Part shown: one piece after another, positions 4,488 to 37,874 of the stretch | How the letters are laid out: every line of letters starts with the position of its first letter | Numbering within the stretch: position 1 is the first letter of the stretch | From: Microbacterium laevaniformans | Lineage (GTDB): Bacteria; Actinomycetota; Actinomycetes; Actinomycetales; Microbacteriaceae | Reading direction: 5' to 3' | Length of the DNA stretch: 64,000 bases | Assembly (NCBI RefSeq): GCF_016907555.1 | Contig: NZ_JAFBCE010000001.1 | Span: forward strand, 496,001-560,000 | Notes under the pieces: model-generated | Seen by the model: the letters and a program-made list of their open reading frames with translations, nothing else | Told to the model about the DNA's origin: nothing | The model's database searches: none | Made by a program: the position numbers and the translations under genes

Positions 4488-6002
4488 ATGAAGCTTGAGT
4501 TGCGTGGCATCACGAAGCGGTTCGGATCGCTCGTCGCCAACGACCACATCGACATCGTCGTCGAGCCGGGGCAGATCCATGCCCTGCTGGGTGAGAACGG
4601 TGCCGGAAAGTCCACCCTGATGAACGTCCTCTACGGCCTCTACCGGGCCGATGAAGGTCAGATCCTGCTCGACGACGTCGTCCAGGATTTCCGCGGCCCC
4701 GGAGACGCGATGGCCGCCGGTATCGGCATGGTGCACCAGCACTTCATGCTCATCCCGGTCTTCACGGTGGCCGAGAACGTCATGCTCGGCCACGAGCAGA
4801 CCGGCGCCCTGGGCTCGCTCGACCTCGCCGCCGCTCGCGCACATGTGCGCGCGGTCGCGGCGCGTTTCGGGTTCGATGTCGACCCCGACGCCCTCGTCGG
4901 CGATCTTCCCGTCGGTGTGCAGCAGCGGGTGGAGATCATCAAGGCGCTCTCGCGCGACGCCAAAGTCCTGGTCTTCGACGAGCCCACCGCGGTGCTCACC
5001 CCGCAAGAGACCGACGAGCTGATGTCCATCATGAAGCAGCTGCGCGACGAGGGCACGGCGATCGTGTTCATCACGCACAAGCTGCGCGAGGTGCGCGCGG
5101 TCGCCGATCGCATCACCGTCATCCGTCTCGGAAAGGTGGTCGGCGAGGCCGAGCCCACCGCATCCAACACCGAGCTCGCCTCGATGATGGTCGGTCGCCC
5201 GGTCGAGCTGACCGTGCACAAGAACCCCCCGCACATCGGCACGGGCGGCCTCGAGGTCAGGAACCTTCGCGTCATCGGCGCCGACGGCGTCGTCCTCGTC
5301 GACGACATCAGCTTCGACGTGCGTCCCGGCGAGGTTCTCGCCGTCGCCGGTGTGCAGGGCAACGGCCAGACCGAGCTCGCGGAGGCGATCATGGGTCTGA
5401 GCTCGCACACGACCGGATCGATCAGACTCGACGGCGCCGAACTCCTCGGCCGCAGCGTCAACCAGGTGCTCGCCAGCGGTGTCGGCTTCGTCCCCGAGGA
5501 CCGCGGTGAGGACGGCCTCGTCGGAGCGTTCTCGGTCGCGGAAAACCTCATCCTCGACCGGTCCGACGACCCCGGTTTCTCCCGCTGGGGGACCATTCGG
5601 CGCGGCATCCTCGACGACTTCGCCAAGGAGCGGATCACCGAGTTCGACATCCGCACGCAAGGCCCCGGCCAGGCGGCGGGTTCGCTCTCCGGCGGCAACC
5701 AGCAGAAGGTCGTCATCGCGCGCGAGCTCAGTCGCAGCCTCAAGCTCTTCCTCGCCTCCCAGCCGACGCGCGGTGTGGACGTGGGCTCGATCGAGTTCAT
5801 CCACAAGCGCATCGTCGAAACGCGCGACGCGGGCATTCCCGTCGTGGTCGTCTCCACCGAGCTCGATGAGGTCGTCGCGCTCGCCGACCGCATCCTCGTG
5901 ATGTACCGCGGGCGCATCGTGGGCATCGTGCCGGCGGATACGCCGCGTGATGTCCTCGGCCTGATGATGGCCGGCGAGAACCCGACGGAGGATGCCGCGT
6001 GA
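4488..6002 (+). CDS. ABC transporter ATP-binding protein, nucleoside import (two ATPase domains)
   Basis: The 504-residue energising subunit of a purine/pyrimidine nucleoside importer (NupO/YufO type). It has two fused ABC domains. The first has Walker A GENGAGKST (35-43), Q-loop GMVHQHFML and Walker B VLVFDEPTAVL, but the signature LPVGVQQRVEI replaces LSGGQ. The second has a degenerate Walker A (GVQGNGQTEL), a proper LSGGNQQKV signature and SQPTRGVDVG at Walker B. This asymmetry is usual for sugar and nucleoside importers of this class. The gene overlaps the first permease gene by four bases (GTGA). Confidence 0.93.
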   Translation: MKLELRGITKRFGSLVANDHIDIVVEPGQIHALLGENGAGKSTLMNVLYGLYRADEGQILLDDVVQDFRGPGDAMAAGIGMVHQHFMLIPVFTVAENVMLGHEQTGALGSLDLAAARAHVRAVAARFGFDVDPDALVGDLPVGVQQRVEIIKALSRDAKVLVFDEPTAVLTPQETDELMSIMKQLRDEGTAIVFITHKLREVRAVADRITVIRLGKVVGEAEPTASNTELASMMVGRPVELTVHKNPPHIGTGGLEVRNLRVIGADGVVLVDDISFDVRPGEVLAVAGVQGNGQTELAEAIMGLSSHTTGSIRLDGAELLGRSVNQVLASGVGFVPEDRGEDGLVGAFSVAENLILDRSDDPGFSRWGTIRRGILDDFAKERITEFDIRTQGPGQAAGSLSGGNQQKVVIARELSRSLKLFLASQPTRGVDVGSIEFIHKRIVETRDAGIPVVVVSTELDEVVALADRILVMYRGRIVGIVPADTPRDVLGLMMAGENPTEDAA

Positions 6003-7309
6003 GCACCACGACCGACCCCGCACCCCTGGCACCCGGCGCGGCGGTACCCCCTCCGCCGACGGCGAACCGTGTCATGACCGAGATCCTGCGCGGCAATGTC
6101 GTGACCACGATCCTGGCCGTCGTGCTGGCACTGATCGTCGGCGGTGTGCTCATCGCCGTGACCAACCCGGAGGTGCAGGCGGCATCCGGATACTTCTTCG
6201 CGCGCCCCGGTGACACGCTCTCGGCCGCCTGGACCGCCGTCGCCGGTGCCTACGCCGCGCTGTTCACCGGCTCGGTCATCAACCCGAACGCACCCGACTT
6301 CCTGAGCGCGATCCGCCCGCTCGCGAACACCCTCGGCTTTGCGACACCGCTCATCGCGGCGGCTCTGGGCATCGCCGTCGCCTTCCGGGTGGGACTGTTC
6401 AACATCGGTGCCCGCGGTCAGATGCTCATCGCGTGCGCCGCCGCGGCGCTGGTGACCTTCCAGCTGGATCTGCCCGCGATCATCCAGGTGCCGCTGACGC
6501 TCGTGGTCGGCATCATCGGCGGCGCGCTGTGGGGCGGACTCGTGGGTCTGCTCAAAGCGCGCACCGGCGCGCACGAGGTGATCCTCACGATCATGCTCAA
6601 CTACATCGCCTTCTACCTGGTGTCGTGGATGGTGCGTGTTCCCGAGCTGCTCCAGAAGCCCGATAACATCCAGCCGATCAGCCGGCCCACGCCGGAGAGC
6701 GCGCGCTTCCCGCTCCTGTTCGGCGAACAGTTCAACCAGCTCAACTGGGGCTTCGTGATCGTCATCGTCGCGACGCTGTTCGTGTGGTGGCTCGTTGAGC
6801 GCTCCAGCCTCGGCTTCCGCATGCGCGCCGTCGGCGAGAACCCGCACGCGGCCCGCGCCGCGGGCATCAGCGTTCCCCGCGTCTACATCTATGCGATGCT
6901 GTTCGCCGGCGGCCTGGCCGGTATCGCGGGCATGTGCCAGATCCAGGGCACGGTCACGAGCGGCTTCGACGGCGGTATCGACGCCGGTATCGGCTTCAAC
7001 GCCATCACCGTCGCCCTCCTCGGACGCAGCCGTGCGTGGGGCACGTTCTGGGCCGGCATCCTGTTCGGCGCGCTCAAGGCGGGCTCGTTCCCGATGCAGG
7101 CGCTGCAGCAGATCCCGGTCGACATCGTTCTCGTCGTCCAGTCGCTGATCGTGCTGTTCATCGCCGCACCGCCTCTGATCCGCACGATCTTCTTCCTTCC
7201 CAAGACCGACGCCGAGCGCTCACCGCGTTCGCGTGCCCGCCTCGCGCGGCGCCGCGCCCGCGGCAACGGATCGGATGCCGGCAACGACCAGAAGGCGGTG
7301 GCAGCATGA
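5999..7309 (+). CDS. ABC transporter permease, nucleoside import (NupP type)
   Basis: A 436-residue integral membrane protein of the BPD_transp_2 type, with about eight to ten hydrophobic segments starting near residue 32. The conserved cytoplasmic-loop motif RAVGENPHAARAAGI contacts the ATPase. A 90-residue loop between the first and second helices and a basic C-terminal tail are visible. The start is GTG at 5999, overlapping the ATPase stop. Its own stop overlaps the next permease gene (ATGA at 7306-7309). The two permeases probably form a heterodimeric channel. Confidence 0.92.
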   Translation: MSTTTDPAPLAPGAAVPPPPTANRVMTEILRGNVVTTILAVVLALIVGGVLIAVTNPEVQAASGYFFARPGDTLSAAWTAVAGAYAALFTGSVINPNAPDFLSAIRPLANTLGFATPLIAAALGIAVAFRVGLFNIGARGQMLIACAAAALVTFQLDLPAIIQVPLTLVVGIIGGALWGGLVGLLKARTGAHEVILTIMLNYIAFYLVSWMVRVPELLQKPDNIQPISRPTPESARFPLLFGEQFNQLNWGFVIVIVATLFVWWLVERSSLGFRMRAVGENPHAARAAGISVPRVYIYAMLFAGGLAGIAGMCQIQGTVTSGFDGGIDAGIGFNAITVALLGRSRAWGTFWAGILFGALKAGSFPMQALQQIPVDIVLVVQSLIVLFIAAPPLIRTIFFLPKTDAERSPRSRARLARRRARGNGSDAGNDQKAVAA

Positions 7310-11468: not shown

Positions 11469-11518
11469 CCAGCACCCCACGGCAGACCCGTCACGTGCGC
11501 GCCTCGAGTACGGCGACC

Positions 11519-11604
11519 GTTCACAACTCCGGAGCTTCCGAGCATTTCCGGCCCGGTGGGCCACAGATCGGGCCGTCCGCTCACAGTTCTCCGGAGTTGT
11601 GAAC
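11519..11604. repeat. 86-bp palindromic element, copy A (3' side of the nuclease gene)
   Basis: GTTCACAACTCCGGAG (11519-11534) is repeated in inverted form at 11589-11604, with 54 bases between. The inner part holds a second stem (CGGCCC...GGGCCG) and the word GGCCACAG. The right arm lies inside the coding sequence of the nuclease gene and encodes its last residues (VHNSG). It sits between convergent genes, so it may also end transcription. The same arms recur at 12575-12660. Confidence 0.85.
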
Positions 11605-12477
11605 TCGCACGGTGCGCGGCGTGGTGCGAGGGCCGCGGGCTACCGCCCGCCGGAGAACCTCGATCACCCATTCCGGACGGAAGAGGATGTCCTCGGCGAG
11701 CAGCCGTAGGGTCGTGAAGCCGAGTCCGACCGCGGCGGCATCCCTGCGGCGGTCTCGTTTGTGGTCCTCCCACGTCCCGTGGTGCGAGAGACTGTCGCAC
11801 TCGATGACAAGCCAACCGTCGACGAGGAGATCCACTCGGCCGACGCCGTCGATTCGCACCTGCAGTTCCACGTGGCATCCCAGACTGCGCAGCATGAGGC
11901 GGACGAGGGTCTCGGTACCCGCCTCCGCACGTTGGTCGAGAAGCGGCCGCAGGGATCGGTAGCGCCCGGGAAGGTGCGCGAAGACATCAGCGAGACCGTC
12001 TTCATCCACTGCCCCGAGATGCCACGCGCTGTCGAGAGTCGCGATTGCATCCCGAGGCCGCTGGCAGCGCACCGCTGCACAGAGTGCTTCGCGGACAGGT
12101 ACGAGCACATCATCGGCGGGGCTGGAGGTGGGACGCCAATGTCGCACGATCTCCGTCGACGCCCCCGGTCGCGGCGTGCGGGAGGCGTCCGGAGCGAGCT
12201 GGATGTGCAACCCCGCACGCTCCCTTACGAACACGCCGAGAAGTCGCAACAGTGAGACGCAGTCCAGGCGCCCGCCCCACTGCACCGCCGCGCACACCTG
12301 CGGATCGGTGTCCCGGGGCAGATAGTGATCGCGCCGCAGGCGCAGGAGCCGTCCGTCGCGCACCGCATCGGTGATCTGTCGGCCGGTGGCTCCCGCGGCG
12401 AGCAGGTGAACACGCCGCAGAACAGCGGTCGGGACGTCGCTGGGCAGAACGAGGCGGTCGGCAGGAGATCGGATCAT
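11581..12477 (-). CDS. AbiEi-like winged-helix plus DUF559 (Vsr-fold) nuclease-like protein
   Basis: A 298-residue protein of unknown role. The N-terminal 70 residues look like the AbiEi-type winged helix (TGRQITDAVRDGRLLRLRRD). The last 100 residues match the DUF559 endonuclease-like fold: VDLLVDG, then VIECDS followed by HH, then DRRRDAAAVGLGFTTLRLL. These carry the D...ExD-type acidic residues of the very-short-patch-repair fold. The ATG at 12477 lies seven bases after a -10-like CAGAGT and there is no clear Shine-Dalgarno. The gene sits between two copies of one palindrome; the left copy encodes the C-terminal tail. A role as a solitary nuclease or a toxin-antitoxin relative is inference. 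Confidence 0.7.
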   Translation of the reverse strand: MIRSPADRLVLPSDVPTAVLRRVHLLAAGATGRQITDAVRDGRLLRLRRDHYLPRDTDPQVCAAVQWGGRLDCVSLLRLLGVFVRERAGLHIQLAPDASRTPRPGASTEIVRHWRPTSSPADDVLVPVREALCAAVRCQRPRDAIATLDSAWHLGAVDEDGLADVFAHLPGRYRSLRPLLDQRAEAGTETLVRLMLRSLGCHVELQVRIDGVGRVDLLVDGWLVIECDSLSHHGTWEDHKRDRRRDAAAVGLGFTTLRLLAEDILFRPEWVIEVLRRAVARGPRTTPRTVRVHNSGEL

Positions 12478-12572
12478 GTCCAGAACTCTGACCGCGACGC
12501 CCGTCGGGCAGGGCTTTGTGTGCCGCGTCGGTGGACGACCGGGTTCAACGGGGCGCGGGGGAGGAGTCGTCG

Positions 12573-12662
12573 CCGTTCACAACTCCGGAGATGCGCTCGC
12601 GACCGTCGGCCACAGCCCCGGCTGGGTGCGATGTACCGAGGGATCTCCGGAGTTGTGAACGG
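12573..12662. repeat. 90-bp palindromic element, copy B (5' side of the nuclease gene)
   Basis: The arms CCGTTCACAACTCCGGAGAT (12573-12592) and their exact complement (12643-12662) are 20 bases each, with 50 bases between. The inner 16 bases of each arm are identical to copy A, and the spacing between those 16-mers is also identical (86 bp overall). The loop again contains GGCCACAG, but most of it differs from copy A. It lies between the end of mtlD and the start of the nuclease gene. Confidence 0.85.
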
Positions 12663-37661: not shown

Positions 37662-37687
37662 CCGCCTCGCCCGCCGCCGTCGTTCCG

Positions 37688-37763
37688 AACTGCAAGGGCT
37701 GGCGGGTGACACGCCGGTGTGGTGGTGGATGCCGCGGCGAGTCGCTCGCGCCACCTTGCAGTT
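37688..37763. repeat. 76-bp palindromic element between purK and purE
   Basis: AACTGCAAGG (37688-37697) is repeated in inverted form at 37754-37763. Inside, GGCG and CGCC extend the pairing, and GCGGCGAGTCG occurs directly twice (around 37734 and 37763). The 225-bp gap between purK and purE otherwise holds only the purE promoter. Confidence 0.65.
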
Positions 37764-37874
37764 GCGGCGAGTCGTTCCTCCCGGTCGTTGAGCGAGGTGC
37801 GAAGCACCGAGCGGGAACGCCGTGCACGGAGGGCGGGATGCGTGGCGTTGCGGGGTTCTTCCAGCGTGCCGTCC

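Follow-up and report, generated by a model that had tools for sequence, protein, structure and literature searches.

The closest described system is the REPtron, which comprises a RAYT gene with its REPs and the dispersed REPINs (PMC3116915, PMC3733652, PMC8049555). Its single-copy, vertically inherited chromosomal enzyme gene has its own palindromes on both sides, dispersed copies lie mostly at gene 3' ends and some in genes, several specific pairs occur per genome, and two conserved ends enclose a variable spacer of fixed length. Inverted repeats are also bound by the AbiEi antitoxin, which occupies two of them cooperatively and bends the DNA (PMC7319586). Two related nucleases are E. coli Vsr, the very short patch repair endonuclease, and the EDxHD homing endonuclease I-Bth0305I, which is reported to act as a dimer on a target just under 60 bp long (PMC3943268), while the family PF18741 has been described as a novel Vsr-type REase (PMC3710099). 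The genomes of many Actinomycetes each encode several DUF559/PF18741 proteins with an AbiEi-like domain, without a known role.

The locus studied here lies in the window, i.e., the whole analysed stretch of 64,000 nucleotides, which corresponds to positions 496001-560000 of a complete 3.03-Mb chromosome of Microbacterium laevaniformans. A solitary nuclease gene, with adenosine deaminase and mannitol-1-phosphate-dehydrogenase-like genes as neighbours, is bracketed by two elements, and a further element stands alone:

11519..11604, no strand: 3' bracket element, with 16-bp inverted arms at 11519-11534 and 11589-11604 and a 54-bp interior, overlapping the final codons of the gene.
11581..12477, minus strand: solitary nuclease gene, 298 aa, with an AbiEi-like wHTH domain (about 20-60), a middle region and a Vsr/EDxHD-fold nuclease domain (about 185-285).
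12575..12660, no strand: 5' bracket element, with the same arms, 86 bp long, 97 bp before the start codon.
37687..37764, no strand: solo element, 78 bp, with arm GAACTGCAAGG, between purK-like and purE-like genes.

The sequence-only reading had placed two copies of one long palindrome around the gene, and this is exact: GTTCACAACTCCGGAG and its reverse complement are found at 11519-11534/11589-11604 and at 12575-12590/12645-12660, both elements being 86 bp long. It was also right in treating the left element as coding DNA, which yields the C-terminal VHNSGEL of the nuclease. The loop word GGCCACAG, which it took to be common to both elements, is given no weight, because it is out of register between the two interiors and these are otherwise unrelated. 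The arm of the solo element at 37687-37764 equals that of another homologue, encoded at genome positions 2034458-2035222, and in this solo family a second inverted pair, GACACGCCG/CGGCGTGTC, is nested inside. Four further, closely grouped solos of the GAACTGCAAGG family were seen at L019:1200-1278, 1783-1860, 5813-5890 and 6019-6096, and this genome may contain many members of the family.

Residues E189, D216, D228, H233 and D246 of the nuclease domain are invariant among 40 homologues. Structural comparison yielded Z scores of 12.8 to Vsr and 12.6 to I-Bth0305I, and Foldseek of the predicted structure placed AbiEi at rank 3, with a model built on five sequences and poor in its middle part. 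Among the 40 homologues, 38 match PF18741 (MTES_1575) and 23 match Pfam AbiEi_4 (best 3e-9); the window protein itself scores 36.3 bits against PF18741, just below the curated cut-off of 38.2, and reaches E 0.12 against AbiEi_4 when taken alone. Both an N-terminal domain of the AbiEi type and a Vsr/EDxHD fold with the conserved catalytic residues of PF18741 are present. In comparison with E. coli Vsr, the protein has extra wHTH and middle domains, palindromic elements, and no adjoining Dcm-like partner. It shares the conserved E, D, H, D pattern with I-Bth0305I but, unlike that enzyme, is encoded outside an intron by a gene that leaves its target uninterrupted, with an intact element on each side. 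In comparison with AbiEi and Rv2827c, whose autoregulation involves inverted repeat pairs 3-13 bp apart at the promoter only (PMC7319586), the arms here are 50-65 bp apart and are found at both gene ends and elsewhere; the C-domain is a nuclease, and the gene has no operon partner for an AbiEii (DUF1814) toxin, as a type IV toxin-antitoxin pair of the AbiE kind has.

The link between gene and palindrome is general: in the Actinomycetes, a class of soil bacteria, these genes are usually bracketed by their own version of the palindrome. A scored bracket test was passed by 59 of 65 homologue loci and by none of 250 random windows, a pass being a score of at least 66 (random-window maximum 65) and a word-complexity filter being applied to the controls and absent for the first 65 loci. 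Under a strict identical-10-mer test, with identical code for loci and controls, 47 of 65 loci passed against 10 of 1500 random windows, and some of these ten are themselves DUF559 loci. When flanks were swapped between loci, 323 of 3000 combinations passed, in line with expectation, since arms are common to related genes. The 20 genomes of one homologue set had been chosen for carrying elements, while the genus-wide and class-wide sets had not; among loci chosen regardless of elements, 26 of the 29 best genus matches and 17 of 28 class-wide matches passed. All six homologues tested in the same genome as the window passed, with CGTATTCAGTCT, TCACGAACTCCG and GAACTGCAAGG among the arms. Convincing brackets were absent at a few loci (L268, L309, L313, L317 and L344). 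The 5' element keeps a fairly constant distance of about 100 bp upstream of the start codon.

The arms themselves differ from gene to gene. Orthologues at the add locus in other species carry CGAAACTCCTGA, CAGAACTCCAC, CGCAACTCCTC or GCGCTCCGG, those in other genera and orders have different arms with both flanks agreeing, and a homologue on an Actinomyces oris plasmid is bracketed by CCAAATCGGATACA. The add-DUF559 arrangement is also found in species without a CCGGA-type arm, and only one of the ten PF18741 matches in the window's own genome adjoins CCGGA elements. Arm similarity correlates with similarity of the wHTH domain (r 0.54; partial r 0.42, p 0.001), a covariation inflated by shared descent, as the sequences are related; the partial correlation with the nuclease domain is 0.13. 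The earlier proposal that the nuclease is tied to the palindromes is hence borne out, with a matched pair at nearly every homologue and arms that follow the wHTH domain. A link to the gene had first seemed refuted, because element-rich genomes have no add-locus orthologue; this was resolved by homologues at a second locus, which are bracketed. Side observations concern the gene itself. At L258 (genome G262), the orthologue of the nuclease gene is split over two matching frames and may be frameshifted, with both elements intact. In G107 and G071, solo elements are present and the nuclease gene has no close homologue; these elements are possibly orphans left after gene loss.

The spacing between arms falls into discrete classes, in steps of about 10-12 bp. 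All 89 non-redundant elements have core lengths of 78-81 or 90-92 bp, with none between, over a searched range of 69-99 bp, and bracket elements, in their own register, measure 53, 61-62, 71-73, 83-84 or 93-94. The interiors are unrelated in sequence among loci, yet have A/T peaks every ~10 bp: the interior A/T fraction rises to 0.58 and falls to 0.08 once every 10 bp (permutation p < 0.0005), the flanks of the elements have no such ~10-bp periodicity, and 46 bracket elements that carry other arms repeat the phasing. Interior complementarity (0.346 against 0.337 in the control) gives no pairing beyond control. In orthologous loci selected by their flanks rather than their arms, 3 of 224 arm positions and 40 of 386 interior positions changed between the window's own genome and G262 (p=5e-6), with no interior indels; for the more distant G281, the values are 3 of 64 and 33 of 104, interior indels being nearly absent. 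Arm change is about 8-fold lower than interior change. Read from the sequences, these properties fit a double-stranded site that would be bent by protein bound at both arms, rather than a hairpin.

Elements are not confined to nuclease genes. The 3.03-Mb genome has 15 exact copies of the arm and 10 with one or two mismatches, and since the reversed arm pattern used as control has none there, chance is excluded. Including near matches, the copies form about 12 inverted pairs, nearly all of 85-86 bp and one of 96 bp, so most copies (about ten elements) lie far from the bracketed gene. At least three arms are represented among the solos of this genome: the CCGGA arm, GAACTGCAAGG (five solos, including the one in the window) and CGTATTCAGTCT (one solo). 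Within the genus, 38 of 366 genomes match a degenerate element pattern, and the matching named records are from Microbacterium, Leifsonia and Agromyces; a shorter-core pattern was found in 8 of 85 sampled genera of the family. The inner arm letters are lineage-specific (CCGGA, CTCA, AGGA, CTGC), and the two arms usually agree. The sequence-only reading would have given up its link if the arm proved widespread away from DUF559 genes. This is half the case: solo copies at unrelated loci do exist, as is also true of RAYT/REPIN systems.

Many copies lie at gene 3' ends, and of 52 solos only 4 are at divergent promoters, compared with 24 between convergent genes. Others sit in frame and at conserved positions inside genes, namely those of an ABC-F ATPase, an RsmC-like methyltransferase, an amidohydrolase and an ECF-type ATPase. 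In-gene elements are read in different frames (VHNSG, PQLRR, FTTPE); therefore, it is the DNA and not the peptide that is conserved. In relatives, the linker of the RsmC-like gene holds a variant-arm element of 86 or 98 bp, another repeat, or nothing; in some species (L162, L174, L175) the palindrome CCCTTCGACAAGCTCAGGGACC replaces the element, the linker being a permissive place for two families of repeats. The neighbours of the elements are functionally unrelated genes. A transcription-factor regulon was rejected, as these neighbours have no common function and promoters are avoided. Origin-proximal positioning on the chromosome, hinted at by the window's own genome, was dropped given the inconsistent picture in other genomes.

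The homologues occupy a few conserved loci, i.e., the add locus in at least 28 species, a second locus in 11 and a third in 8. They were found on 2 of 72,556 plasmids and in 1 of 50,697 phages, and the conserved loci together with this near absence from plasmids indicate vertical inheritance, as in a REPtron. A phage or plasmid origin was rejected: viral contigs contain no paired-arm pattern, their 27 single-arm matches look like chance, and a pattern search returned no viral relative of the protein. The suggestion of gene gain or homing through the elements finds no support either, as the gene is an old resident beside add in at least 28 species, many with another arm.

The reading we favour, with a probability of roughly 0.58, is a module of nuclease and cognate palindrome, in which the protein would bind the arms, bend the interior, keep the arms matched by its nuclease activity and occasionally copy elements. 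Binding of the arms has good support from the sequence comparisons and from analogy with AbiEi: the wHTH domains of two protein molecules, or of a dimer, would contact the two inverted arms of a single element and keep the intervening 50-65 bp tightly bent, much as AbiEi bends the DNA at its inverted repeats. The Vsr-type nuclease domain may then act at the bound element or next to it, and its activity may keep the arms matched and occasionally copy elements, giving rise to solo copies; both of these steps are less certain. The 5' element, given its distance of ~100 bp from the start codon, probably serves self-control of the gene.

Three other explanations were weighed. It is possible, though we think it unlikely, that the elements are operators only, used for repression of the gene and local shaping of the chromosome; the nuclease would then act elsewhere, e.g., on invading DNA, without contributing to how the elements arise or are maintained, and the solos would be decoys or sites of other regulation. 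AbiEi, with its cooperative binding and bending at promoter repeats, is a precedent, and the fairly constant 5' position and the chromosomal, vertically inherited gene agree with it. An operator, however, needs no second element at the 3' end, which is nearly universal here, and the solos avoid divergent promoters and lie beside functionally unrelated genes or inside genes. A terminator or RNA hairpin, in which the arms would pair as an RNA stem under selection, accounts for complementary arms and the many copies at 3' ends, but is scarcely credible with loops of 54-66 nt lacking inner complementarity and with spacing quantised by the helical turn and A/T phased at 10 bp, both of them features of the DNA duplex.

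Very improbable too, if less so than the hairpin, is that the elements are REPINs or MITEs, miniature transposons moved by an ordinary transposase, with the nuclease gene as a hot-spot bystander. Dispersed intergenic copies with a preference for convergent genes, and in-frame insertions in the RsmC-like gene, where some sites are occupied and others empty, are what such elements would leave. Yet the Y1 transposase (PF01797) is absent from the window's own genome, in a search whose controls worked, no transposase is among the commonest families of 111 element neighbours, and the interiors are unrelated and without complementarity, whereas IS/MITE families have similar interiors and an autonomous transposase with the same ends; only tandem duplicates share interiors here. 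That nearly every homologue has its own arm largely refutes this reading.

The proposed module agrees with REPtrons in all the genomic properties listed at the outset, including cognate, gene-specific repeats flanking the enzyme gene, and the earlier analogy with REP/RAYT is apt for this arrangement. It is nevertheless not filed as a REPtron because two defining tests failed: the bracketed enzyme combines a wHTH domain with a Vsr/EDxHD fold, in contrast with the HUH Y1 transposase of RAYT, and the spacer has no hairpin with compensatory changes, symmetric interior complementarity being at control level. It is further set apart by its low copy number, the lack of a GTAG tag, and arm spacing that follows the helical turn, with A/T in phase. 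The arm sequence and DUF559 proteins with palindromes were not found in the open-access library that was searched. These results point to an enzyme-and-repeat system unrecognised until now; neither its enzyme nor its site architecture occurs in the repeat systems described in that library. More tentatively, at odds somewhat short of even, the wHTH-Vsr nucleases may represent, class-wide, a second and independently evolved case of the REPtron principle, in which private, double-armed, helically phased sites at both gene ends are bound, maintained and occasionally copied by the nuclease, and arm specificity shifts through change in the wHTH domain. Matched brackets give a predicted DNA target for each protein, readable from sequence, and provide many natural protein-site pairs for the study of specificity change; the module would also be a new case of an enzyme keeping a population of short DNA repeats, with a nuclease that differs from RAYT.

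Traces of copying are found in a few cases. The bracket partners at L032, L270 and L312 have nearly identical interiors, as do some tandem pairs, so duplication of whole elements is possible; most partners have drifted, and since most interiors are unrelated, recent copying is visible only in these few. In empty-site comparisons, the locus of the intergenic element at 2486810 is strongly diverged. Beside the 2758528-type element, L251 (G262:C1:2043300-2044700) has ~250 bp extra in comparison with the window's own genome. Elements of Leifsonia poae (L047:7692-7782 and L064) carry additional arms, which form pairs of 91 bp and 50 bp.
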